Positions 6,553 through 60,711 of a stretch of DNA of 64,000 nucleotides are shown here, piece after piece. Source of the DNA: Bacteroidaceae bacterium (GTDB taxonomy: Bacteria > Bacteroidota > Bacteroidia > Bacteroidales > Bacteroidaceae); NCBI GenBank assembly GCA_017651245.1, contig JAGCDQ010000076.1, positions 62,001 to 126,000 on the forward strand, given 5' to 3'. The notes beneath the pieces were generated by a model that searched no databases, had not been told where the DNA came from, and worked only from the letters and a program-made list of their open reading frames with translations. The position numbers and the translations under genes were made by a program. How positions within the stretch are numbered: position 1 is the first letter of the stretch; each line of letters opens with the position of its first letter.

Positions 6553-7688
6553 AAACTGCGGAACTGAGCGTTGTCAGCTTTCTTCACCGCTACACACTCC
6601 ATCTCAATGAGCCAGGTTGGACGGCAAACGGGTGCGAGGGTGATGACATAAGGCATGTTTGGGAATTTTTCTTGAAACATCTTCTGCACAATCTCGTAGT
6701 CTGCACAATCTCGTAGATAGACAATAATCTGCATGACATCATCATAAGTCATGCCACCTTCGTTGAGCAATGTCTCCACGTTTTCCCACATGCGATAGGT
6801 CTGATTCACGATATCTCCCACATGCACCACTTCTCCCTTGTTGTTGATAGAAGCAGTACCAGAGATATAGACGTGGTTGCGGTCACCATACTGCATGAGG
6901 GTTCCACGCTCAAAGGTCACACCATATTCAATGGTCCTGTTCAGGTGTGACAATGCATAGAGATAGCGTTGCTGCTCGGGTTCAAATCCCGTCATGGCAT
7001 AGCATCCCATCTGCACGAGAGCCTTCGGATCAGCGGGTGTGCCACCGATACCTGTGGAGGCGATGTAATGCGTGTATTGTGTCAAGCCCTGCTCTGCAAA
7101 ACATTCACGGCGTGACTTGACCAATCCGTTGTATTGTGTATCGACATCGCGCACAAAGAACCAAGTGCGGATGCAGTTGGCTTCCAGTGTGGCGTTGAAG
7201 TTTTTCAGTGTGTCAATATAAGTGAAGAGGGACTTCCATGTCTGCATGTAGGAAGTGTCAACAGTGGTGTTCATGATGCCCATCGTCCAGATGTGCTGGT
7301 AACCATTATGTGACACCACGGTGGAACCATTCGCGTGGCTGATGTCGGTGCCGCGTTGCAGATAAAGCCATACGGCGATCTTGGAGCCATCGAGTGGGGG
7401 CTGCTGAATATAGGAGACGGTGCAAGGGTTGTTCTCCTCAATCAGTGGCACCTGGTTCGTGGCATCGCTCAGGAAATAACGCTTGAACACCGTCTTGGCA
7501 CCCTCCATTTCGGACATTTCCATCAGGGCCTTTTCTGCCTGTTGTATGCGTGAGAGTTGCCCAGCGAACACTTCCTCTTGGGGCTTTACATGGAGGATGG
7601 CATGAAACTCGGTTACATCACCTGCTGTGAAGCTGGTGAACTCGATGCGCGCTCCTATTTCTTCAATATTTATAGCCTGAAATTCCAT
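6549..7688 (-). CDS. Large Rid (YjgF/L-PSP) domain protein
   Basis: A 379-residue protein whose C-terminal ~125 residues form a Rid domain. The piece VYISGTASINNKGEVVH and the end CRPTWLIEMECVAV carry the Arg and hydrophobic strand that place the imine-hydrolysing site in RidA. The N-terminal ~240 residues look like a second, diverged copy of the fold, as in chorismatase-type relatives, so chorismate-derived substrates are possible but unproven. The start was moved to the second Met (7688) because a perfect -7 box covers the first Met codon region. Confidence 0.8.
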   Translation of the reverse strand: MEFQAINIEEIGARIEFTSFTAGDVTEFHAILHVKPQEEVFAGQLSRIQQAEKALMEMSEMEGAKTVFKRYFLSDATNQVPLIEENNPCTVSYIQQPPLDGSKIAVWLYLQRGTDISHANGSTVVSHNGYQHIWTMGIMNTTVDTSYMQTWKSLFTYIDTLKNFNATLEANCIRTWFFVRDVDTQYNGLVKSRRECFAEQGLTQYTHYIASTGIGGTPADPKALVQMGCYAMTGFEPEQQRYLYALSHLNRTIEYGVTFERGTLMQYGDRNHVYISGTASINNKGEVVHVGDIVNQTYRMWENVETLLNEGGMTYDDVMQIIVYLRDCADYEIVQKMFQEKFPNMPYVITLAPVCRPTWLIEMECVAVKKADNAQFRSF

Positions 7689-7697
7689 AATCGGATG

Positions 7698-7705
7698 CAA
7701 AGGTA
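7698..7705 (-). promoter_or_regulatory. -7 box of the Rid-domain gene
   Basis: Read on the minus strand this is TACCTTTG, ending 9 nt before the ATG at 7688. The transcript would begin only a few bases before the start codon. Confidence 0.6.
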
Positions 7706-7753
7706 CAAAAAAGTTGGGTAAGTGAAGAGGGAAAAGCGAAAAAATTTGCTTTT

Positions 7754-9928
7754 CTATGCATAGCTATGCAGTCCTCCGAGGAAGAAATTGACGCCAAAGT
7801 AGGTGATGAGGACAGCCAAGAAAGCCAACACCATGAAAAGGTGGTAGTGTCGTGGTTGCCGCAACCAAGAGAAAGAAGTGCTGTGCATGGGGAAGGCATA
7901 AATGAGCATGGTGATGAGTGCCCACACTTCTTTGGGGTCCCATCCCCAATAGCGTCCCCAGCTTACATTAGCCCAGATGGCACCGATGAAGATGCCTGCC
8001 GTGAGAAGGAACAGGGCGGGGTAGAGGAAGAGTTGGGAAAGCAAGTGCATCTCCTCTGCTTTCTTCTTGACAATGAGGGCATAGATGCCACAGGCAAAGG
8101 TGATGCTGAAGAGTCCGTATGCCATCATCACGCAGCTCACATGAATGCTGAGCAACGGCGAGGACAACACTGGCATGATGTGGGTGATTTTGGGATCCAT
8201 CTGTCCGAGGTGGCTCACGAGCAAGAGGAAGCCTGAGAGCAGGAGACCGAAGGTGAGGATAATGTGGAACTTCCGATACACCAGCAAAGAAGCAAGCATG
8301 ATCATCCAGGCAATCATGAGCATGGTCTCATAGCCATTGGTCATGGGAATGTAGCCACTGATGAGCCAACGGAGTGCCAGACATACTGTGAGTGCCAGAA
8401 ATGCGCTTCCCAACACAGCCAATGACAGGCGTTGCATCCATTTCCGACGAATCAGGCTGAGCAAGGCAAACGTGAGGCACACCATGAAGAGGATGGTGGC
8501 AAAGGGAATGCTGTTGTAGATATGTTCGGCTGTCAGTCGGGTGGGCGAGGGGAGGTCATCGGTACCGTATTGCTGCTGATACTTCTGCATCTTCTGCAAC
8601 ATCTCGATGGCTTGGGCGGATTGGTTTTCAGTCATGTAAGAACCCAACACAGAAAGGGCGTTTTGGATGTACTTCTTGCGTTCCTCCTCCATGGTGGTGG
8701 GCAGGCTGTCGGTCGGGGCATACCACTTGCCTTTGTAGGGGAAAATCCTGAGTGCCTCGCCTCTCGACACTTGCATGACGAGCATCACCTTGTCGTCCAC
8801 CTTCATCACTTCCTCGTGGAAGGGGTCGTTCTCGCCCATGTAATACTCCTCGATGTAGGGTCCGAGCAGATAGCCATCGTTGCCGAACAACGATGCCACG
8901 GAAGTGTATTCGTTCAGTCCCAGCCGTTGGCGCACTTCTGCCGACTTGATGCGGAGGATGGGTTCTTGGCTCCATGAGTCACGGGAGAAGATGAAGCCGC
9001 ACAGCACCTCTTCTGCCGAATGTCCTTTGTAGGAAGATTTTCCGTAGAGCTTGCGGGTGAAGTCCAATGCCAAGGTCTGCACAGGGCAGATGCGGTCGTT
9101 CCAGTTGATGCACAGATGTCCAAACGCCTCTGTCTGTTCTTCTGTGAATGTCTCAGCCGCATGAACCTGCATGGGCAACAGCACCAGCATCATCACGCTG
9201 GCTTTTTGGATGAGTTGTCGGAAACGTCCCTTGGGGTCAATGAGCAGCAGGAGCATGGAGAGGAACAGCAATCCATAGCCGAAGTATGTGACGGGAATGC
9301 CCCACTTGTCCGAATTGATGGCGAGCGTGCTGCCCATGCCGTCTTCGTCATAGCCACTTTGGTAGAGGCGCATGCCCTGGGTGGCATAGATGTTGTTCAT
9401 GGACACGAACCCCCTCTCTTGCTTCAGGTTATCGTTATCGTTAGGGTTATCGTTAAGGTTATCGTTATCGTTAAGGTTATCGTTATCGTTAAAGTATATC
9501 GTGAAGTGCGACTCATAATCTGCCACCGCCTCCGTGCCGTTGTGATATTTGATGTTGAAGCTGTCGAGGGTGATGCTGAAGGGCAGGTCTCTCACCATGC
9601 CTCCATTGTCTTCCAGACACACATCCACCGCCACACCTTGGCGTAGATGCACCATCCCTTGCCATGAAGTCAGGTGCGTCAGCAATGCCCCCACCAATAT
9701 GACGACGAAAGAGAAGTGCAGCAAGAGCACGCTCACTCTCTTCACTTTTCGTTGCAGGATATAGGCAATGCCACCCACCGCCAGCAATGCCCACAGTCCT
9801 GTGAACCACCACGAACCGTAGATGTTGCTGAGCACGTAGGGAGTGCCCTGCGTTTTTTCCACGACAGTAGCCATAGCCATCACGAGGATGACTATGGCAT
9901 AGAGTGTGAATGTGACTTTCTTTAACAT
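7754..9928 (-). CDS. ccsA: Fused cytochrome c maturation protein CcsB-CcsA
   Basis: A 724-residue fusion of a ResB/CcsB-like N-terminal half and a CcsA C-terminal half, the system II apparatus that exports heme and attaches it to CxxCH apocytochromes. The N-terminal part has three early membrane segments and a large periplasmic domain (about 90-210); the C-terminal part has about eight segments and the tryptophan-rich heme-handling motif WGRYWGWDPKEVWA (about residues 652-665). The protein directly follows a di-heme cytochrome gene, its obvious client. Oddity: residues 146-167 are an Asn-Asp-Leu run encoded by eleven hexamers (9428-9493) like the repeats seen between genes elsewhere in the window. 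Confidence 0.92.
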   Translation of the reverse strand: MLKKVTFTLYAIVILVMAMATVVEKTQGTPYVLSNIYGSWWFTGLWALLAVGGIAYILQRKVKRVSVLLLHFSFVVILVGALLTHLTSWQGMVHLRQGVAVDVCLEDNGGMVRDLPFSITLDSFNIKYHNGTEAVADYESHFTIYFNDNDNLNDNDNLNDNPNDNDNLKQERGFVSMNNIYATQGMRLYQSGYDEDGMGSTLAINSDKWGIPVTYFGYGLLFLSMLLLLIDPKGRFRQLIQKASVMMLVLLPMQVHAAETFTEEQTEAFGHLCINWNDRICPVQTLALDFTRKLYGKSSYKGHSAEEVLCGFIFSRDSWSQEPILRIKSAEVRQRLGLNEYTSVASLFGNDGYLLGPYIEEYYMGENDPFHEEVMKVDDKVMLVMQVSRGEALRIFPYKGKWYAPTDSLPTTMEEERKKYIQNALSVLGSYMTENQSAQAIEMLQKMQKYQQQYGTDDLPSPTRLTAEHIYNSIPFATILFMVCLTFALLSLIRRKWMQRLSLAVLGSAFLALTVCLALRWLISGYIPMTNGYETMLMIAWMIMLASLLVYRKFHIILTFGLLLSGFLLLVSHLGQMDPKITHIMPVLSSPLLSIHVSCVMMAYGLFSITFACGIYALIVKKKAEEMHLLSQLFLYPALFLLTAGIFIGAIWANVSWGRYWGWDPKEVWALITMLIYAFPMHSTSFSWLRQPRHYHLFMVLAFLAVLITYFGVNFFLGGLHSYA
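9428..9493 (+). repeat. Hexanucleotide repeat inside ccsA
   Basis: Eleven consecutive hexamers of the forms GTTATC, GTTAAG, GTTAGG and GTTAAA (plus-strand reading). The period is a multiple of three, so the coding frame on the minus strand is kept and gives an NDNDNL-type run. The same hexamers occur between genes at 39789-39812 and 62092-62107. Confidence 0.9.
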
Positions 9929-16340: not shown

Positions 16341-16563
16341 TCCACACCCCGTGGAAACGTTCTCGACGATGTCGGGAAGCCTTCCACACCCCATGGAAAG
16401 GTTCCCGACGATGAAAAGAAGCCTTCCACACCCTATGGAAAGGTTCCCGACGATGAAAAGAAGCCTTCCACACCCTATGGAAACCTTCCCGACGATGTTT
16501 CGGGGCTCGACATACCCTATGGAAACCTTCCCGACGACGTTGAGAGGCTCGACATACCCTATG
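16341..16563 (+). repeat. 42-bp minisatellite, about 5.3 copies
   Basis: Five full 42-bp units start at 16341, 16383, 16425, 16467 and 16509, with a 13-bp partial unit at 16551-16563. Copies 2-3 are nearly identical and the outer ones drift. Most units contain a small dyad TTCCA-7 nt-TGGAA. Because 42 is divisible by three, several frames stay open, including an 82-codon one (16335-16583) with a 14-residue repeat; there is no other sign that it is coding. The array lies between the lipoprotein and the DUF6261 gene, 85 bp before the latter. Confidence 0.9.
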
Positions 16564-16648: not shown

Positions 16649-17578
16649 ATGGAGAATATCCCTTCTTTAGTGCAGGAATTGAACCTGCGAGGCACGACCA
16701 ACGCCGTTTGCATCAGCGTGGTCAAGTACACACTCGACCAGTTCGATGAGTTTTTCACCCAACAAAATCCAGCGCCTGCCAAGCTGGCCCGCCAGCTGGT
16801 GAGCTGCCGAGCCCGTTACAGCGCGCTCGACGATGTCTATGCCCAGCAGCTGAAGGCCGAAGAGACGGAAAGCATCTCGACCCTCGATTCGGAGGGCGAC
16901 CAGCTCGTCTATGGCGTGAAGGGCATGACGGATGCCTATCGCCGCATGGACTTCGATTCGGAGAAGAAGGCGTCGGCCAACCGATTCTATGAGTTCATGC
17001 GCAAGCACCGCATCGACCCGACGGAGAACATGATTTCGGAGTGGTCGAAAATCCAGCAGTTCACCGATGAATGGTCAAACACCCCATCGCTCCAGGCCGA
17101 TGCCGCCGCGCTCGGGCTCAGTGGCGCGATGACGCGTCTGGCAGCCATCGAGGTGGAAATCCGCCAGCTCATGACCTCCCGCAACGACGCGGCTCCCGAG
17201 GCTCAGGCGGTGAAGAAGGCGCGCGAGGCTCTCTATCCCGAATACCGCGCCCTCATCCTCCTGCTCAACTCCTACGCCGTGGTGGACGATGACCCACAGA
17301 CCTATGCCCTGCTCATCAATCGACTGAACAGGAACATCGACTACGTGCGCCAGCATGCCATGGCAGGCGGCGGTTCCAGCTCTGGCTCTAACAGCGGCAA
17401 CGGCGGCACCACGCCAAGCGACGACCAAGGTGGCGGTGGCGACGACAACGGCGGTGGCGATGACAATGGTGGCGACAACGGTGGTGGCGAGAACACGAAT
17501 CCGACGAATCCCACGAATCCTGACAACGGGGGCGACAATGGCGGAGGAGGCGATGACGGCGGCGAAGGAGTTTTTTGA
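16649..17578 (+). CDS. DUF6261-like protein with Gly/Asn/Asp-rich tail (copy 1)
   Basis: A 309-residue protein with no signal peptide. Residues 1-235 are helical and resemble the DUF6261 family of Bacteroidetes (function unknown), with runs such as YPEYRALILLLNSYAVV. Residues 237-309 are low-complexity (Gly, Asn, Asp, Ser, Thr, Pro) and end GGDDGGEGVF. The tail is nearly the same as that of a second copy at 36635-37567 (both have GGGENTNPTNP) although the bodies have diverged strongly. No promoter is evident right upstream; it may depend on read-through from the lipoprotein gene past the minisatellite. Confidence 0.7.
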   Translation: MENIPSLVQELNLRGTTNAVCISVVKYTLDQFDEFFTQQNPAPAKLARQLVSCRARYSALDDVYAQQLKAEETESISTLDSEGDQLVYGVKGMTDAYRRMDFDSEKKASANRFYEFMRKHRIDPTENMISEWSKIQQFTDEWSNTPSLQADAAALGLSGAMTRLAAIEVEIRQLMTSRNDAAPEAQAVKKAREALYPEYRALILLLNSYAVVDDDPQTYALLINRLNRNIDYVRQHAMAGGGSSSGSNSGNGGTTPSDDQGGGGDDNGGGDDNGGDNGGGENTNPTNPTNPDNGGDNGGGGDDGGEGVF

Positions 17579-36601: not shown

Positions 36602-36640
36602 TACCTTAGACCTTTGACTTTAGACTTTTGACCTTTAAAA
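36602..36640 (-). repeat. Heptamer phrase repeat, inverted copy
   Basis: TACCTTAGACCTTTGACTTTAGACTTTTGACC-type heptamers (shown in part: GACCTTT, GACTTTA, GACTTTT). They are the inverse of the repeat at 36486-36547 and reach the stop codon of the DUF6261 gene. Confidence 0.8.
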
Positions 36641-37567
36641 AGTTCCTTCCCCGACATCGTCGCTGCCTCCGCCATTATCTCCGCCGCCGGAGCCTCCTCC
36701 GTTGTCGGGATTTGTGGGATTTGTGTTCTCACCACCACCATTCTCGCCACCGTCGCCAGGTTCTGTCGTAGGCTCAGTGGCAGGCTCGGTGTTTGTGCCG
36801 CCTTGCTGCGACGTGCCACTGTTCGACGAGGAAGAGCCTGAGCTTGAACTGGAAGAAGAGGAAGTGCCAGACTTGCGGTCGAGCATGTCCTGATAAATCT
36901 TCAGCGTGCCGTTCCACTTCTTGATGAACGCCTCGTAAGGTGCCGGGTCTTCAGCGGTCATGGCAAACGCCTCGATGAGGTCGAGGATGCCATCGTAGAG
37001 CTGGTCGCAGTTCTTGCGGGCACTGCGGAGGGCACCGACCACCTTCTCGCTCATTTCCACACCCTGCTCGCGGCGCAGCGTCTTCACCTCCTCGTTCGCC
37101 TGACACATCTGCTCGAAAAGACCTGTGGCATGGAGCGTGGCGAGGTGAGCCTGCATGGCAGGGGTGGAGATGTCGGTGATGAGGTTGTCCATCTGCCCCG
37201 TCTCCTCTTCCAGCTGGGCGTTCACCTTCACCTTGTAGAGCTTGAAGGGCTTCAGCAAGGTGGTGGCGGCAGCGTCGAACTCAGCATCGTCGCTTCCTGC
37301 CCATGCGCGGATCAAGGCATAGAGGCGCGAGTACTTGTCGTCGCGGCGGCGGTCAGCCTCATTGCGCTGGGCAATGATCTCACTCGCCTTCGCCACCATA
37401 TACCAGCGGTCCTCCTCGCTGAAGGCTGTTTTCAACTGCTGGAGCAGCGCCACAATCTTGGCAGCTGACCAGTTCTCCTCGTCCATCAGGGTGATGAACG
37501 CATGGATGAACGAAAAATGCTGTGCATTCTTCAGTCCTGTCTTAAGAATTCTAAAAAAATCGCTCAT
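36635..37567 (-). CDS. DUF6261-like protein with Gly/Asn/Asp-rich tail (copy 2)
   Basis: A 310-residue paralogue of the gene at 16649-17578, with no signal peptide. A helical body (1-235) is followed by a Ser-rich run, then Thr-Glu-Pro repeats and a tail GGENTNPTNPDNGGG...VGEGTF almost the same as copy 1. The start is ATG 37567; an upstream in-frame Met (37603) would lie closer to the minisatellite and adds a Lys-rich, unconserved stretch. Its promoter is about 370 bp upstream, so the whole 41-bp minisatellite is in the transcribed leader. Confidence 0.7.
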   Translation of the reverse strand: MSDFFRILKTGLKNAQHFSFIHAFITLMDEENWSAAKIVALLQQLKTAFSEEDRWYMVAKASEIIAQRNEADRRRDDKYSRLYALIRAWAGSDDAEFDAAATTLLKPFKLYKVKVNAQLEEETGQMDNLITDISTPAMQAHLATLHATGLFEQMCQANEEVKTLRREQGVEMSEKVVGALRSARKNCDQLYDGILDLIEAFAMTAEDPAPYEAFIKKWNGTLKIYQDMLDRKSGTSSSSSSSSGSSSSNSGTSQQGGTNTEPATEPTTEPGDGGENGGGENTNPTNPDNGGGSGGGDNGGGSDDVGEGTF

Positions 37568-37615
37568 AATAAAAACAGTTTTTTTGTTAATGAATTTTTT
37601 CAAAGCTTGCTACAG

Positions 37616-37790
37616 CTCTAGCAAATGGTTTTTTCTTGAAAATGCGTTTGCTAGGCCTCTAGCAAATGGTTTTTTCCCGAAAATGTCCTTGCCAGGCCTC
37701 TAGCAAATGGTTTTTTCCCGAAAACACGTTTGCTAGGCTTCTAGCAAATTGTTTTTCTTCGGAAATGCGTTTGCTAGACCTCTAGCAAGC
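37616..37790 (+). repeat. 41-bp minisatellite, about 4.3 copies, with internal dyads
   Basis: Units start at 37616, 37657, 37698 and 37739, with a partial copy at 37780-37790. Unit junctions form a perfect eight-base dyad TTTGCTAG-GCCT-CTAGCAAA (clear at 37647-37666). The copies have a fully conserved interior with no unique spacers, so this is not a CRISPR. It is 49-223 bp upstream of the DUF6261 ATG and lies inside the predicted leader RNA. Confidence 0.92.
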
Positions 37791-49469: not shown

Positions 49470-50830
49470 TACTTAAAGCTTGAATAAATTACTTCGAGCT
49501 TGATTTTGTCCGTGGCACCTCCAACAAGTCGTGCATTACTCATGCTGAAATCGTGGTTGAGCTTGACGATATTGCCTGAAGAGTCTTTTGTGAGCTCAAC
49601 GGGAATGATAAGCACCTTGTTCCAATTGGCAGTGGCTTTACCCTGTTCCTTCTCCTTCGCCATACGGGTGAGGAGACGGGCAATGTTGTTGAACTGGTAA
49701 GAATTGGTGTTGCTGTTGAAGGTGGCAAGATAGGACTCCTTGCCATCGTTCACCTGATAGTTCTCGAAAAATCCATTGAGATAGTCGTCAAGACGCACCA
49801 ACAACACGGTCTTGGGTATGTTGAGTTTGAAAGGACTCTCCACTTGATCGTTGTAGCGAGTGAACGTGAGCTTAGCAGAGTTGATGGTGTCCTGCACGTT
49901 GATCTGCTCTGCTGGTAATGTCGCCAACGTGAAAATACCAGCCGGACTTTTCAGGTAGGTGGCATTTTTGTCATCAAGAAGTTTATCTAGGTTGGAGTTC
50001 TCGAATCGAGTGGCCTGTACGACGGCATCGGTGGAGGCAAAAGATGCCATACCGATGGTGTCGCGATGGATGTAATCTTCGTAGTAGCGGAAGAAGATGT
50101 TGAGTTGTACAAGATTGATGTAAGCCATCGCACCATCGCCATTTTCCAGCTTGAAATAAAGTCCCTTACTACAAGGATTACCACTTTTCTGCCATGTAGA
50201 AGTATTCTCAAAGTGCTCAGGGTGAGCCTTGAAGTCGCGGATGATGTGTGTGCCAATCTCTGTAGGAAGGCTTACGAGAATGTTGTTATTATAAGAAGAA
50301 GACCAACGGTCGGTGTCCTTGATGGTACGGTCGCTGATGGTGAACCACTTCGTAGCGATAGGCTCAGAGGTTTTATCGTAGTATTTCTCAGGATCGATGT
50401 TGGTGTAGTAGTCGGCATTGGGGTCGAGCGATTCGTTCAGTTCATAGACGCTGAGCTTGAAGTTCTGAAGGGAATCACCCACATAGTCGTCAATGAAAAG
50501 TCTGAGGTCAAAGCGTGTACAAGACTCATTTTGTACATTGGATGGAATGTCGAAGCCCTCATCGATGTGGAACTGTGCCAGGAAGTCGCTCTTGACGGTG
50601 GTGTTGGTCTCTGGGTCGGTGAAGCGTCCCAAATAAGACATATTAGTGCGTGCCAACACTGCGTCGCCTACAGGATAAGATTCTGTGGTGACATCATAGG
50701 TCTGATAATTTTTGGTGACAAGGTCGGACTTGGGCATCATGTCAACACCAAGCGTAGCGGTGTTGTCATCGCATGCCACCAACATAAGCAATGCTGTGAC
50801 CCAAACAAGGAGATGTGCTAGCTTGAACAT
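49469..50830 (-). CDS. DUF4270-like lipoprotein
   Basis: A 453-residue lipoprotein: lipobox ALLMLVAC (Cys20), then an all-beta protein of the DUF4270 family, a large Bacteroidetes group of unknown function that is likely exposed outside. It lies 4 bp downstream of a glycogen-synthase-like gene, a pairing that recurs in Bacteroidetes. Confidence 0.85.
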   Translation of the reverse strand: MFKLAHLLVWVTALLMLVACDDNTATLGVDMMPKSDLVTKNYQTYDVTTESYPVGDAVLARTNMSYLGRFTDPETNTTVKSDFLAQFHIDEGFDIPSNVQNESCTRFDLRLFIDDYVGDSLQNFKLSVYELNESLDPNADYYTNIDPEKYYDKTSEPIATKWFTISDRTIKDTDRWSSSYNNNILVSLPTEIGTHIIRDFKAHPEHFENTSTWQKSGNPCSKGLYFKLENGDGAMAYINLVQLNIFFRYYEDYIHRDTIGMASFASTDAVVQATRFENSNLDKLLDDKNATYLKSPAGIFTLATLPAEQINVQDTINSAKLTFTRYNDQVESPFKLNIPKTVLLVRLDDYLNGFFENYQVNDGKESYLATFNSNTNSYQFNNIARLLTRMAKEKEQGKATANWNKVLIIPVELTKDSSGNIVKLNHDFSMSNARLVGGATDKIKLEVIYSSFK

Positions 50831-56274: not shown

Positions 56275-57261
56275 ATGAGAAACGAATTGATAAATTATAA
56301 AGGCGGCATGATTCTCTTTTGCTTGCTGATGTTCTGCTCTTGCATGATGGGGGCTGAGCGATTTGTGTTCTCTACAATATGGATTCCTCAGTCGGAATTT
56401 GCAGGGTATTATGTAGCAAAAGAGAAGGGCTTTTACAATGACGTAGGGCTTGATGTGGTTATCCAACATCCTTCATTGACAAGTACGGTTTATCATCGTT
56501 TGGATACGCATGAGTGCGATGCAGGCGTGTTTTCTCTGATGTCAGCTATTGACATTGTTGCCAAAGGTACACCTATTGTCAATATTTTTCAGACATCCAT
56601 GAACAGCAGTTATATGATTGTTTCGAGATGGGGAAAAGATCCCACGATGGAAAAGGGTAAGCGTATTGCTGTTTATCATTCTGAACCCAACTATTTGGCT
56701 TATATCCTTGACAAAGAAAAGAATCTGAATTATGAGTGGGTATCTTTCACCGGTAACATCAATCTTTTTATCTCAGGAGGTATTGACATGATGTCAGTTG
56801 TTAGTTACAATGAGTATCTGTTGTTGCAGCAAGCGTGTTTTAATATGCCTCAGGGGAGCGTATATAGATTTAAGGATCATGGCTACAACATTCAGGAGAA
56901 TGGTGTGTACGTAAAGCGTGAATATTATGAAACTCATCGTGACCAGACGAGGCGTTTTGCCGAAGCCAGCAGGAAAGGATGGGAATGGGCTGCATCACAT
57001 CCAGACGAAGCATTGGACATTGTGATGAAATATGTCCGTGAAGCGCATGTACAAACGAATCGTGTCATCCAGAAATTGATGTTGGAGGAGATACTCCGTT
57101 TACAAATAGACCCCGATTCTGGACGGCGTGAATATCGTGTGCGTCCCGAAATGGTGATGAAAGCTAGTCGCTTGATGACGAACCATGGTATGATAACAAG
57201 GGAAGTAACTTATGCCGAATTGATGGGATATAAGCAGCAAAACACGAATAAAAAACCGTAA
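56275..57261 (+). CDS. NMT1/THI5-like periplasmic binding protein
   Basis: A 328-residue binding protein of the NMT1/THI5-like (ABC SsuA/ThiY) type: hydrophobic export signal (GMILFCLLMFCSCMMGA, perhaps a lipobox), then IPQSEFAGYYVAKEKGFY, typical of ligand-binding starts in the family. The usual transporter permease and ATPase genes are absent; instead it is followed, 1 bp later, by two sensor genes, suggesting it presents a ligand to them. The start may be the second Met (56308). Confidence 0.82.
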   Translation: MRNELINYKGGMILFCLLMFCSCMMGAERFVFSTIWIPQSEFAGYYVAKEKGFYNDVGLDVVIQHPSLTSTVYHRLDTHECDAGVFSLMSAIDIVAKGTPIVNIFQTSMNSSYMIVSRWGKDPTMEKGKRIAVYHSEPNYLAYILDKEKNLNYEWVSFTGNINLFISGGIDMMSVVSYNEYLLLQQACFNMPQGSVYRFKDHGYNIQENGVYVKREYYETHRDQTRRFAEASRKGWEWAASHPDEALDIVMKYVREAHVQTNRVIQKLMLEEILRLQIDPDSGRREYRVRPEMVMKASRLMTNHGMITREVTYAELMGYKQQNTNKKP

Positions 57262-57262
57262 A

Positions 57263-58798
57263 ATGAGTATATTCACATACATACGAAGCTCGTTAGCGGC
57301 ACGTCTCAGTATTTGGGTCGTGACTAGTGTGATGATATTGTTCGTGGCAGCTTTATCTATCCTCTTTCACTATTCGCGTTTGGCAGTGAGGGAGGAAGCT
57401 ATGGAGAAGGCTGCGCAAACGTTGGAGGGTACGATGTTGCATGTGAACAATACACTTCATGATGTGGAAGTGGCTGCCAATAACATGAAATGGTTGGTGG
57501 AGCAGCATATTGATACGCCTGACTCTATGTTTACTTTCAGTCGGAAAATCATGGATAATAATCCTGATATCTATGGTTGTTCCATCGCGTTTGAACCCTA
57601 TTATTTTAAGGAAAAAGGACGTTATTTCTCTGCCTATTCGTATAATGGAGGTGATTCGATAGAAACGGAGCAAGAGGGTAGTGACTTGTATGAGTATTAC
57701 TATATGGATTGGTATCTTATTGCCAAACTACTCAACAAACCATATTGGGTGGAGCCATTCCGTGATGAAAATACAGGAGGTATTGAGGTAAATGATTACA
57801 TTGCTTCGTTCTCTCAGCCTATTCACGACAGAAATGATAATATTGTTGGTATTCTTTCTGTTGATTTGTCACTTAAATGGTTTTCGAAAACAATCCTGAG
57901 GGCAAAGCCGTTCCCCAATTCATACTGTGTATTGGTGGGAAGAGGAGGCACTTTCCTTGTTCATCCGGACACCACTAAACTTTTCTACGAAACTATTTTC
58001 ACACCTACGTTAGATCAACCAGACAAGGAAAGAGAGAAGTTGGGAAAAGCAATGATTGGTGGTGAAAGCGGGTATCAGGTGCTCAATCGTGATGGCGAAG
58101 AATTTTATGTGTTCTATCGCCCACTCACGCATACAGGATGGAGTGTTGCCATTGTATGTCCTGAAAGTGACATCTTCGAGCCATATAAACAGTTGCGGAA
58201 GAATCTTTTGTTCATCACGGTTCTGGGTTTGCTACTGTTGCTCTTTTTCTGTGTCTTTGTCATTCGCTACAATTTGCGGCCTCTCAAGCTGCTGGGTATA
58301 TCTGCAGAAAAAATGTCTGAGGGTGATTTCGATGTGTCTGTTCCAGATAGCAGACGTCGTGACGAAATAGGACTGTTGCAACACAGTTTCCATAAGATGC
58401 AGAGATTCTTGAAAGACTACATTAATCAGATGCGTCTCTCCACAGAGACCTTGACCCAGCGTAATGCAGAACTGATGAAAGCAGGTGAATTGGCGAAAGA
58501 AGATGACCGTATGAAGACGGCTGTCCTCAACAACATGACTGACCAGATGGCGCAGCCTATTGATCTCATTGCAGAAGAGAGCGATCTGATTCGTCGGGAG
58601 TATAAGACCCTCTCCGAAGAGGAAATGGTGCAGCATGTTGACCGCATGCTTGAAAACACAGAGGTGATTACAGCTATGCTCAATAAGATTCTCGAAGCGT
58701 CTGATACATTGGGAGTGACGAAGAAGTCCGAGGATTCTGAACCCTCCAGTGATGCCGCTTCCACACCATTGTCGAACGAAGAAACTGCAGCAACATGA
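57263..58798 (+). CDS. dCache-HAMP sensor with histidine-less dimerisation domain
   Basis: A 511-residue membrane sensor: an N-terminal membrane segment (about 14-36), a periplasmic double Cache domain (40-315), a second segment (about 317-338) and a HAMP region (340-395). The following stretch, NNMTDQMAQPID, lines up with the phosphoacceptor segment of the downstream kinase but has Asp427 where that kinase has His427, and the protein ends after the helical hairpin without an ATP-binding domain. Thus it resembles a truncated, inactivated histidine kinase. It overlaps the next gene by 4 bp (ATGA). A Ser/Glu-rich tail follows. Confidence 0.87.
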   Translation: MSIFTYIRSSLAARLSIWVVTSVMILFVAALSILFHYSRLAVREEAMEKAAQTLEGTMLHVNNTLHDVEVAANNMKWLVEQHIDTPDSMFTFSRKIMDNNPDIYGCSIAFEPYYFKEKGRYFSAYSYNGGDSIETEQEGSDLYEYYYMDWYLIAKLLNKPYWVEPFRDENTGGIEVNDYIASFSQPIHDRNDNIVGILSVDLSLKWFSKTILRAKPFPNSYCVLVGRGGTFLVHPDTTKLFYETIFTPTLDQPDKEREKLGKAMIGGESGYQVLNRDGEEFYVFYRPLTHTGWSVAIVCPESDIFEPYKQLRKNLLFITVLGLLLLLFFCVFVIRYNLRPLKLLGISAEKMSEGDFDVSVPDSRRRDEIGLLQHSFHKMQRFLKDYINQMRLSTETLTQRNAELMKAGELAKEDDRMKTAVLNNMTDQMAQPIDLIAEESDLIRREYKTLSEEEMVQHVDRMLENTEVITAMLNKILEASDTLGVTKKSEDSEPSSDAASTPLSNEETAAT

Positions 58799-60711
58799 AA
58801 AATCCAATCACGTATATACGGCATTCCCTCTCAACGAGGATTGGTCTGATGATCATGTTTTGTGCTGTGGTCGTCTTCGTGGTGTCTCTCGGATTCCTCT
58901 ACGTGAAGTCGCGCAACTATGTTCGTGAAGATGCCATGCACAGAGCCTCCACTGTGCTCAATAACACAACATTGAGAGTGACGGAGATTCTGAATGAAGT
59001 GGAGATTGCCACCAACAACACCGACTGGTTGGTGCGTACTCATTTGCAACCCGACTCCATTAGAATGTATTCTCGACGTATTATTGAGACTAATTCTAAT
59101 TTCAATGGATGTTCTATTTCTTTTGAACCTTATTTCTTCCCGGAAGAAGGAAAGTATTTCTCTGTCTATTCTTCATGGAGTGGTGACACTATCGAGACAG
59201 AGCAGGAAGGCAGTGACGAATACTGTTATTTCGAGAAGGAATGGTACACTGTACCAAAACGGCAAAATGTTGCATGTTGGGTTGATCCATTCTTCGATGA
59301 TTATGAAGATGATGGTGAACACCATGAAATGATTACTTCTTATGCCATTCCGCTTATCAACGAAGGCGGGCAATGCATTGGTGTCATTTCCACAGACCTC
59401 TCTTTGGAATGGCTTTCCACAACCATCTCTGCACAGATGCCGTCTCAACGTTCCTATTGTATTATGGTGAGTAGGGACGGAACCTATTTTGTGCACCCTG
59501 ATCAGGAAAAGCTCGTGAATCAGACCATCTTCTCTAATACTGACCCTGATTATGATGCAGACAAGATTGCTCTCGGAAATGCTATGGTTCGAGGAGAGGA
59601 CGGCATAAAGCGCCTTGTGCTGGATGATGAGGTCTGCTATGTCTTTTATCGTCAATTACCTCAAACGGGATGGAGCATGGCAATTGTCTATCCTGAAGAC
59701 GAGATATTCCGAGGCTACAACAATCTTTACTACATTGTTCTTGCTGTCATTGGTGTAGGATTGTTGTTGCTGCTCATCTTATGTCGGCAAATTATTAACA
59801 ATGCCATCAAGCCTGTCAATCAGCTTGCCAAACAAGCACGTTACATTGCTGCTGGTAACTTTGATGAACGAATACCTCGTAGCGACCGCATTGACCCTGT
59901 CGGACGTTTGCAGAATATGTTCAGTGACATGCAGCAGTATATTTCTGGCTACATCAATGACATCCATCGCATGAATGACGAGATAGAGCAGCGTAACGGC
60001 GAATTGATTGTTGCCAACCAACAAGCACAAAAAGCGCTGGAGAAGAAGATTGCCTTCATGCAAGATTTGACTCATCAGGTTCGTACGCCATTGAATATCA
60101 TTATCGGTTTCTCACAAGTGCTTCGTATGGGGTGTCAGGATATTCCTGACGAAGAGATGGCGACCATTATGGATGCCATGCAGGAGAACACCAAGAATCT
60201 CAGGGGTATTGTTGACAAACTTCTCGTCGCAGCCCTCTTTGAGAATAAAGAAGGTGTGAAGAAGGATAGTAATGTTTACTGTAATGCGGTTTGTCGTCAA
60301 GTGATGGGTGAAACCCACAGCAAGAATCCTGGTGCAGTGACGCTTCATTTCACCACATCTGTTCCAGAAGATTTCGCCATCTTCTCCAACAAGAATGTGA
60401 TAGCCAAAGTGCTTCAGCAGATGCTTGACAATGCAAACCAATTCACGAAGCAAGGTACCATCACCCTTGATTGCCAACAGCTTTCTCCTGAGACCGTCAG
60501 TTTCATTGTCTCCGATACAGGTATTGGCATTGATGAGGCTGATGCGGAACGTGTGTTTGAACAATTCACGAAGTTGGATTATTATAGCGAGGGACTTGGA
60601 TTGGGCCTTACACTCTGCCGCTATAGTGCGGAAGGTATGGGTGGCACCTTCACGCTCGACATGACCTACAAAGAGGGAGCTCGGTTTGTCATGACCTTGC
60701 CAATAGCGTGA
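58795..60711 (+). CDS. dCache-HAMP histidine kinase
   Basis: A 638-residue sensor kinase, paralogous to the upstream gene: membrane segments at about 14-36 and 318-338, a periplasmic double Cache domain, HAMP, HisKA with DLTHQVRTPLN (His427), then the ATPase domain with the N-box LDNANQF, G1 VSDTGIGIDEAD and G2 GLGLGLTLCR. No receiver domain and no response-regulator gene in the window. It forms a three-gene unit with the binding protein and the histidine-less sensor. Confidence 0.93.
   Translation: MKNPITYIRHSLSTRIGLMIMFCAVVVFVVSLGFLYVKSRNYVREDAMHRASTVLNNTTLRVTEILNEVEIATNNTDWLVRTHLQPDSIRMYSRRIIETNSNFNGCSISFEPYFFPEEGKYFSVYSSWSGDTIETEQEGSDEYCYFEKEWYTVPKRQNVACWVDPFFDDYEDDGEHHEMITSYAIPLINEGGQCIGVISTDLSLEWLSTTISAQMPSQRSYCIMVSRDGTYFVHPDQEKLVNQTIFSNTDPDYDADKIALGNAMVRGEDGIKRLVLDDEVCYVFYRQLPQTGWSMAIVYPEDEIFRGYNNLYYIVLAVIGVGLLLLLILCRQIINNAIKPVNQLAKQARYIAAGNFDERIPRSDRIDPVGRLQNMFSDMQQYISGYINDIHRMNDEIEQRNGELIVANQQAQKALEKKIAFMQDLTHQVRTPLNIIIGFSQVLRMGCQDIPDEEMATIMDAMQENTKNLRGIVDKLLVAALFENKEGVKKDSNVYCNAVCRQVMGETHSKNPGAVTLHFTTSVPEDFAIFSNKNVIAKVLQQMLDNANQFTKQGTITLDCQQLSPETVSFIVSDTGIGIDEADAERVFEQFTKLDYYSEGLGLGLTLCRYSAEGMGGTFTLDMTYKEGARFVMTLPIA

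Follow-up and report, generated by a model that had tools for sequence, protein, structure and literature searches.

We identified a conserved trio of genes in the window (the whole 64,000 nt stretch of DNA that was analysed, from a relative of rumen Prevotella), in which a gene for a periplasmic binding protein (SBP; gene A) is followed by genes for two paralogous membrane sensors (genes B and C). Gene B has lost the catalytic residues of a histidine kinase, although purifying selection acts on the DHp stub that it retains; gene C carries glutamine in place of the acidic residue that follows the phosphoacceptor histidine in HisKA kinases. From the sequence evidence we tentatively propose, with a little less than even confidence, that the trio acts under control of a ligand as a heteromeric sensor, with a bias towards dephosphorylating a response regulator and with B as an inert subunit.

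Organization and conservation of the trio

The coordinates of the three ORFs and of their functional positions are given in Table 1. As the original prediction had described, B begins 1 bp behind the SBP gene and overlaps C by 4 bp, an arrangement that may couple the translation of B and C. The original prediction had also been staked on conservation of the trio in relatives, and we found the SBP gene directly upstream in 43 of the 43 distinct group 1 loci (the window's type), a recurrence which argues that the arrangement is not due to chance. At 86 of the 87 loci measured in related genomes C is the gene immediately after B, and at the remaining locus (L136) the start of C is present behind B before the contig ends. 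Carriers of the trio include a culturable strain, Prevotella sp. tf2-5 (L139).

Table 1. Features of the three-gene module (positions in the window)
Feature	Position	Strand	Basis or conservation
Gene A, 328-aa periplasmic binding protein of the NMT1/THI5 type	56275..57261	+	PF09084
Gene B, catalytically degenerate 511-aa dCache-HAMP-DHp stub lacking HATPase	57263..58798	+	Pfam, profile alignment
Helical hairpin resembling DHp, B residues 418-481	58514..58705	+	Profile alignment
Codon of Asp427 (GAC) in B, which replaces the phosphoacceptor His	58541..58543	+	
ATGA overlap, stop of B and start of C	58795..58798	+	4-bp overlap in 57/87 distinct loci
Gene C, dCache-HAMP-HisKA-HATPase_c protein, 638 aa	58795..60711	+	Pfam
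Codon of the canonical phosphoacceptor His427 (CAT) in C	60073..60075	+	
Gln428 codon (CAG) of C, Glu/Asp in HisKA kinases	60076..60078	+	
Thr431 codon of C, HisKA phosphatase position (+4)	60085..60087	+	
HATPase_c domain, C residues 536-637, with intact N, G1 and G2 motifs	60400..60705	+	

Seventeen loci repeating other records were matched by hand and dropped before counting. The 87 B proteins exclude a 349-aa B-like ORF at L244, whose acceptor column holds Glu, and the 87 C proteins include the C of L244 and exclude that of L136, which is cut before the DHp; L254_13 and L244_11 were reassigned to C by hand. Also omitted from the counts were L246_16, which matches PP2C, an isolated fragment of a Cache domain in L096, the 337-aa Cache ORFs of L245 and L248, and the fragments G002:C35 and G011:C40. 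The synteny listing used a greedy choice of ORFs, and antisense ORFs replaced the true genes at L057, L060, L062 and L064; the trio is present at all four.

The binding protein and its putative input role

Gene A matches the NMT1 family (PF09084, 95.6 bits against a Pfam cut-off of 20.5, residues 40-246), has an N-terminal signal sequence by eye, and is the sole PF09084 match in the genome, which is 86% complete. No permease or ATPase of an NMT1-type transporter was seen by eye among the adjacent ORFs of the window, in agreement with the original prediction, so that A is not accompanied there by the genes that characterize an NMT1/THI5 ABC importer of the ThiXYZ type. No TPP riboswitch or other RNA control element matched Rfam above the gathering score between positions 50000 and 64000. 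Gene A is distant from the FAMP-binding protein 3ix1 and from 4nmy, and its similarity to FAMP/THI5-type proteins is too remote a basis for naming a ligand. An AI-2 or amino-acid dCache motif was judged by eye to be absent.

The same SBP family lies directly upstream of Cache-HAMP proteins with a PP2C phosphatase output in sister operons, and both of the sister-operon proteins that were scanned carry a SpoIIE/PP2C domain. Since the same family recurs upstream when the output is PP2C, the earlier suggestion that the binding protein delivers a ligand to the sensors gains support; in such a scheme the binding protein would dock on the Cache sensors. These SiaA-like relatives share the Cache-HAMP input with the trio but have a Ser/Thr phosphatase output, followed at some loci by a protein of ~100 aa (STAS type by eye), and no B-C pair. 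B scored 46 bits against the SiaA-like dCache-HAMP-PP2C model NF038263 (NCBIfam; cut-off 700), and in neither B nor C did Pfam detect the SpoIIE/PP2C domain of a SiaA-type partner-switch sensor.

Gene B is a degenerate sensor under purifying selection

In Pfam, B matched dCache_1 (63.6 bits) and HAMP (41.7 bits), with HisKA at only 13.6 bits (cut-off 26.9, E 0.072). No HATPase match was found in B, consistent with the earlier observation that the first sensor ends after the hairpin without an ATPase domain, and a profile of B aligned over its positions 410-485 to the DHp of Thermotoga maritima HK853 (2c2a, 3dge; E 3e-7). B and C are paralogues (488 residues aligned, 41% identity, E 2e-124), and their alignment bears out the shared architecture originally noted, with Asp427 of B and His427 of C at the same residue number.

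Across 87 distinct loci, the acceptor column of B holds Asp (62), Glu (11), Asn (9) or Gly (5), and never His. The phosphatase position (+4) is Thr in three of the 87 and Asn in none, and the frame ends 52-88 residues past the acceptor column in the 72 loci measured. B is thus without both the acceptor His and the HATPase_c of a canonical HisKA kinase. Of 17 pairs compared, 14 gave a usable dN/dS ratio for the B DHp, and these ratios lay at 0.05-0.35; of the other three, one had no changes, one was saturated and one (L089/L090) had a dS of 0.03 (ratio 0.90). The short tail behind the DHp is less constrained than the DHp itself. We therefore reject a recent loss or pseudogene, given the absence of His at 87 of 87 loci, the early end of the frame and the purifying selection on the DHp. 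B has the character of a pseudo-histidine kinase, namely a kinase homologue without catalytic residues that is under selection.

A full kinase restored in the B of close relatives would have spoken against the original prediction; none of the 87 B proteins has the acceptor His or an ATPase domain, a count on which it bears that B was partly recognized by its short length. Locus L067 is a possible exception. At this locus, in the same-genus genome G007, a single full kinase combines a B-like sensor with a C-like catalytic part; we do not accept it as a B-C fusion because it is indistinguishable from an ancestral single kinase.

Gene C: kinase or phosphatase

The original prediction named C a true histidine kinase. 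Its domain content stands: C matched an MCP-like PDC domain (73.2 bits), HAMP (25.8 bits, cut-off 25), HisKA (40.6 bits) and HATPase_c (68.3 bits), with dCache_1 just below the cut-off (41.4 against 45), and it carries His427, the +4 Thr and an HATPase_c that retains motifs N, G1 and G2. Its status as a kinase is doubtful, as the motif reads H-Q-V-R-T and the acid expected at +1, on which kinase activity depends in tested HisKA proteins, is absent. Gln follows the His in 83 of the 87 C proteins and the kinase acid is missing from 86, the pair at L157 being HE; the +4 position is Thr in 86 and Ser in one. By comparison, Glu or Asp follows the His in 37/37 other HisKA segments, the acid is present in the seven other HisKA proteins of the same genome that were read (three weak matches lie outside this count), and 41 Bacteroidales genomes gave 466 HE-pattern matches against eight real HQ sites (~2% Gln).

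Some HQ kinases are active, and the seven other HQ HisKA proteins found in Bacteroidales may count against a phosphatase reading. The replacement of the kinase acid by Gln428 leads us to predict dephosphorylation as the main output of C. The E372Q substitution in CrdS is reported to abolish autokinase activity and preserve phosphatase activity, and NtrB E140Q is described as kinase-minus (PMC3510030). The original proposal that B tunes the kinase may therefore be wrong in sign. Phosphatase without kinase activity, as proposed here for C, is also reported for DrBphP (PMC12471899); DrBphP is a phytochrome and CrdS E372Q a laboratory mutant, whereas the HQ change is fixed across the present family.

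The acceptor His is kept in 53/53 C proteins of groups 1 and 3, which weighs against a pure phosphatase, as such an enzyme would not strictly need it; the retained His427 may serve phosphotransfer or weak autokinase activity. In group 2, a paralogous branch also present in this genome, the His is lost from 17 of 20 C proteins, Thr is kept in all 20, and the ATPase motifs are kept in the 19 inspected. CrdS H371A is reported still to dephosphorylate its regulator (half-life 2.6 min, compared with 53.5 alone and 0.7 with the wild type), but PleC H610A lost both kinase and phosphatase activity, and CrdS with Thr at the phosphatase position was partially active (PMC3510030). The latter two results weaken a phosphatase reading of the His-less group 2.

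It is less likely, though the strongest of the alternatives, that C is a working kinase despite Gln428 and that B, as its partner in a heterodimer, adjusts the autophosphorylation of C in an activating or dominant-negative manner. The His is present in 42/42 group 1 C proteins, with ATP-binding motifs in those inspected, and RocA-CovS (PMC7028121) and DivL-CckA are reported cases of a pseudokinase that increases the output of its partner kinase. This alternative has to contend with the near-universal absence from C of an acid that other HisKA proteins of the genome retain, and with a whole branch largely devoid of the His.

Relationship of the two sensors and their target

Covariation between B and C did not single out matching columns: the same-column offset ranked 35 of 41, for HAMP-linker and DHp alike. 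With within-group shuffles and relatedness uncontrolled, 54 of 7721 pairs were extreme in like regions (HAMP, linker and DHp) against 59 of 13888 in unlike regions; a few TM columns were excluded from these sums. B and C might not mix at all, B being a separate receptor, a decoy or an SBP docking platform with its DHp stub as a homodimer clamp. ChrS provides a precedent: a frameshifted form that lacks a normal ATPase domain is reported to give no significant two-hybrid heterodimer signal (PMC9491836). We consider this improbable because a separate receptor would not need the constant adjacency of B and C, which holds at all 87 counted loci, mostly with overlap.

Least probable is a moved acceptor, in which a His at -4 of B, one helical turn earlier, is phosphorylated in trans by the ATPase domain of C. 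Such a His occurs in 50/87 B proteins (20/20 in group 2, 20/22 in the Prevotella branch). Among the group 2 C proteins, 13 of the 17 without the canonical His also have it, as against 0/3 with the canonical His. FasC with only TM and DHp is reported to work, requiring H246, with FasB proposed to phosphorylate it (PMC12675982). Against a moved acceptor, the window's B has Asn at -4, like 18/21 B proteins in the clade to which it belongs, Leu occupies the position in 10/11 of group 3, and the partner C still has no kinase acid.

Twelve receiver domains were found in the genome, none of them on the window's contig, so that the earlier statement that no response regulator is visible holds. No conserved response regulator was seen by eye among the neighbours of 17 trio loci, and the operon is without the regulator gene of a two-component operon. 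An orphan single-domain receiver, P0004 (counted by hand at E under 1e-55), was present in 21/21 same-genus genomes with the B-C pair and 12/16 without it, and a second, P0005, in 36/37 genus members. Both were rejected as linked regulators, as neither is specific to B-C carriers.

In the heteromeric phosphatase that we favour, soluble periplasmic A would bring a small ligand to B and C, whose ectodomains are of the Cache type. B, with neither acceptor His, phosphatase Thr nor ATPase domain, would have kept its Cache, HAMP and DHp helices to dimerize with C and shift its state. C, with its ATP-binding domain, His427 and Thr431, would, under control of the ligand, mainly dephosphorylate a regulator whose gene lies at another site.

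Comparison with known systems

RocA-CovS, RetS-GacS and DivL-CckA are reported as pairs in which an inert histidine-kinase relative modulates a partner sensor, as proposed for B. The RocA-, RetS- and DivL-type genes are not known to form fixed pairs with their partner genes. RocA keeps a CA-like domain, whereas B has none, and RocA without its CA domain is reported to complement when overexpressed (PMC7028121). FasBC of group A Streptococcus resembles B-C in comprising two operonic kinase-like membrane sensors, one with a dispensable ATPase domain; a two-hybrid signal is reported for the mixed Fas pair only, a precedent for the heterodimer proposed here (PMC12675982). The Fas partner with the dispensable ATPase domain supplies the essential His, whereas in the trio this residue is absent from B and present in C. 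The Fas operon includes a regulator and is not reported to include a binding protein (PMC12675982); the trio has an SBP and no operonic regulator.

Periplasmic binding proteins feed sensor kinases in TorT-TorS and LuxP-LuxQ. The same is reported for GltB-GtrS (PMC7927077). The trio differs from all three in its NMT1-type protein, its double-Cache architecture and its two sensors.

Biological significance

Proteins with HisKA and HATPase domains are usually annotated as kinases. As B is without catalytic parts and C looks phosphate-removing, the trio may be a switch-off device built from kinase parts. It is possible, if rather doubtful, that it represents a family of ligand-gated heteromeric regulator phosphatases in which B is stripped of catalysis and C is fixed as kinase-off and phosphatase-on, with one His-less branch, and in which an SBP-Cache cassette can be plugged into either of two phosphatases of unrelated kinds, this one or PP2C. 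If so, this would be a natural family whose conserved residues argue for an activity opposite to its annotation, in which one half of a constant gene pair shed its catalytic domain and the same kind of input is wired to two outputs. It would make testable whether a natural HQ HisKA protein acts only as a phosphatase, and whether Bacteroidales regularly build sensor kinases as heterodimers.

Layout and recurrence of the trio

The coordinates, the 1 bp gap behind the binding-protein (SBP) gene and the 4 bp ATGA overlap between the second gene (B) and the third (C) are as originally predicted. Alignment of the two sensors (41% identity across 488 residues) likewise confirmed Asp427 of B opposite His427 of C, at the HisKA phosphoacceptor site, and Pfam bore out the proposed lack of an ATPase domain in B and its presence in C. 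The stub of B is, by homology, a DHp domain that has degenerated, rather than an unrelated coiled coil, because a B-protein profile still aligns to the hairpin of the T. maritima HK853 DHp (E 3e-7). Elsewhere in the window, two DUF6261 proteins with low-complexity tails are encoded on opposite strands, and a 41–42 bp tandem repeat array lies just upstream of each start.

Coordinates and features of the trio and related loci
Feature	Location	Coordinates	Strand	Features noted
SBP (protein A)	Window	56275–57261	+	NMT1 (Pfam)
B	Window	57263–58798	+	Cache, HAMP; HisKA 13.6 bits, below the 26.9 cut-off; no HATPase (Pfam)
C	Window	58795–60711	+	Cache, HAMP, HisKA, HATPase_c (Pfam)
DUF6261 protein	Window	16649–17578
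DUF6261 protein	Window	36635–37603
Tandem repeat array	Window	16341–16563
Tandem repeat array	Window	37616–37788
Group-2 C, own genome	Contig C22 (L017)	6570–8480		Ile at acceptor; HisKA 34.3 bits, above cut-off
Orphan response regulator	Contig C42	16402–16827		142 aa, single domain; L103 1456–1881, minus strand
Compact pair, another genus	L244	5073–7606	−	349-aa B-like ORF, 495-aa C-like protein
Solo kinase, same genus (genome G007)	L067	5272–7173		Full-length HQ kinase
Cache protein, other genus	L245	6355–7368	−	337 aa
Cache protein, other genus	L248	2184–3197		337 aa
Sister SBP/Cache-HAMP-PP2C operons	L094, L101, L102, L097, L098, L155–L194 minus L157 and L180			L172 cut before SBP

The window's own genome (2.83 Mb in 77 contigs, 86% complete) carries two further B–C pairs, on contigs C22 and C11, both with the 4 bp overlap and neither with a binding protein. 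The window's pair was named group 1, and the other two groups 2 and 3. Pairs were collected from same-genus genomes, from other genera of the family and from a named genome collection, whose best 80 of 507 matches have titles that are mostly ruminant-gut Bacteroidales MAGs and include the trio-bearing Prevotella sp. tf2-5; drawn from these selected sources, the set is a sample and not a census. Removal of 17 loci repeating the same records left 87 distinct B loci.

C lies directly behind B in 86 of these loci, and in the 87th (L136) the start of C is present before the contig ends; 57 loci have an overlap of exactly 4 bp. The trio does recur in relatives, since SBP lies immediately upstream of the B–C pair in all 43 group-1 loci of the sample (21 in the window's clade, 22 in a Prevotella branch). 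No SBP was found ahead of B in the 44 remaining loci, where upstream DNA was just 0.4 kb for L085 and the next shortest flanks were 1.2–1.6 kb. Among other genera, with five candidates scored per genome, 60/301 genomes matched at E 1e-90, which is not a count of pairs because many matches were longer frames of the Cache-PP2C kind whose alignment stopped near residue 410. B ORFs span 479–624 aa, the longest (L134) owing its length to an upstream start codon. Absence of the ATPase domain from B, judged by Pfam for four proteins and by the frame end for the rest, is partly circular, because short length also helped us to recognize B.

Several loci depart from this layout. In L244, whose B-like ORF is outside the 87, neither partner has an ATPase domain, as both end after the DHp; the C-like protein keeps His (H-K) and the B-like ORF has Glu at the acceptor. 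L157 is a pair with no SBP within its 1.3 kb of upstream DNA, and its C reads His-Glu. In L245 and L248, a Cache protein directly upstream of B takes the place held by SBP in group 1; membrane segments are present, and no HAMP or output domain was seen.

Catalytic residues of the two sensors

Not one of the 87 B proteins has His at the acceptor column (Asp 62, Glu 11, Asn 9, Gly 5) or Asn at the +4 phosphatase position (Thr in three). Structural residues are kept, for example Pro at +5 outside group 3, and dN/dS of the B DHp was 0.05–0.35 in the 14 pairs, out of 17, that gave a usable ratio. B has lost both catalytic residues and kept structural ones.

The 87 C proteins considered are the 86 partners of counted B and that of L244, with L067 set apart. 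His occupies the acceptor column in 69, Gln follows it at +1 in 83 (with single cases of Glu, Leu, Lys and His), and 86 have Thr at +4, the remaining one Ser. In group 2, Leu, Ile, Met or Arg replaces His in 17/20, so that neither partner of those pairs has the canonical acceptor; Thr at +4 is present in 20/20, and all 19 inspected retain R-T-P-L-N together with the ATPase motifs. B has His at −4, one helical turn before its lost acceptor, in 20/20 group-2 proteins, 20/22 of the Prevotella branch and 10/12 from other genera. The same His occurs in 13/17 group-2 C proteins without the canonical His, versus 0/3 with it.

Gln after the His is all but fixed in this C family. Other HisKA segments of the retrieved DNA were acidic at +1 in 37/37 (Glu 34, Asp 3), a sample skewed to textbook kinases because most were the top-scoring HisKA matches of their genomes. 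The HE-x-R-T-P DNA pattern had 466 matches (frames unchecked) in 41 Bacteroidales genomes, versus 11 for a reversed control, and the HQ pattern 29 versus 12. Eight of the 29, the window's C among them, fell inside long HisKA-like frames, which places HQ near 2% of the Bacteroidales background. A second HisKA group with LSHQIRTPL motifs was seen in other Bacteroidales families (L262, L269, L274, L283 and L286; frames of 571–609 aa), and is possibly another phosphatase-type family.

Excerpts of PMC3510030 report that in Myxococcus CrdS each of E372A, E372D, E372G and E372Q abolishes kinase activity and leaves the protein phosphatase-competent, that E-to-A acts similarly in HK853 and two other proteins, and that NtrB E140Q is described as kinase-minus. 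CrdS N375 (+4) is required for phosphatase activity, with Thr there partly active; CrdS H371A retains most phosphatase activity, and PleC H610A loses both activities (PMC3510030, excerpts). By the CrdS standard, C would be kinase-impaired and phosphatase-competent, and B inert. Counting against this, His427 is kept in 53/53 C proteins of groups 1 and 3, where it is probably still used. We consider a phosphatase-biased C somewhat more likely than an active kinase that is tuned.

Descent of the pair

In a tree of the sensor parts (101 rows), the B proteins of groups 1, 2 and 3 formed clean groups, with B2 and B3 joined (99/97); C1, C2 and C3 were joined (100/99), C2 and C3 sharing one branch. 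These topologies would be explained most simply if the pair multiplied as a unit, the ATPase domain of B having been lost earlier. More than one loss is also possible, because B1, B2+B3, C and the solo kinase meet at a fork whose order the tree does not resolve. In a catalytic tree (46 rows), 33 paired C proteins and the solo kinase formed one clade (94/93), apart from 12 ordinary HisKA kinases. L067, without SBP or partner, is nearer B1 in most windows of its sensor and nearer C1 in its DHp start and catalytic part; it may be a B–C fusion or an ancestral single kinase.

Output and interaction

As originally noted, the trio lacks a response regulator: a receiver-domain search found none anywhere on its contig, C74, and by-eye inspection recognized none among conserved neighbours. 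The co-occurrence of two orphan regulators with the pair was not specific and was rejected as evidence of a target. The one on contig C42, beside an apparent hisS, is 87–100% identical in 21/21 same-genus genomes carrying the pair, and is a candidate target, though an unspecific one.

Covariation over 85 B–C pairs gave no same-column signal, and a weak excess of like-with-like regions with relatedness uncontrolled. The closest experimental precedent for B–C interaction is FasBC, an operonic kinase-like pair with a two-hybrid signal between partners, none with self, and one dispensable ATPase domain (PMC12675982, in excerpt). Partial texts also describe RocA, which acts with CovS as a pseudokinase and complements without its CA domain if overexpressed (PMC7028121), and a frameshifted ChrS without a normal ATPase domain, which promotes signalling via a second kinase, the heterodimer signal of truncated ChrS not being significant (PMC9491836). 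In literature searches mostly outside subscription journals, some of them with narrow terms, we recognized no description of the trio among work on inert or truncated histidine kinases, NMT1-fed sensor kinases, Cache-SBP-PP2C modules, Bacteroidetes pseudokinases and phosphatase-only HisKA proteins. The excerpted part of a rumen survey lists kinases and phosphatases with a dCache_1 domain as candidate AI-2 receptors and does not describe the trio (PMC9540692).

The input module

No Rfam riboswitch was found near the trio. The solved SBP relatives nearest by sequence, at low similarity, include a thiamin pyrimidine precursor binder.

Cache-HAMP-PP2C genes, too, are immediately preceded by this SBP family, both within the genus and in further families of the order; the arrangement holds for 37 of 38 PP2C-kind loci among L155–L194, the 38th beginning at a contig end. 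SpoIIE was present in both Cache-HAMP-PP2C proteins scanned, and an STAS-looking protein of about 100 aa lay near the PP2C gene in 6/10 loci inspected, directly behind it in four. L170 has two Cache-HAMP-PP2C phosphatases in tandem. In a tree of 30 of the 43 HK-type and 30 of the 41 PP2C-type SBPs, the two types fell on two sides of one branch (100/100). Because one SBP family precedes both B–C pairs and Cache-HAMP-PP2C proteins, SBP and Cache-HAMP would together constitute an input cassette with two outputs.
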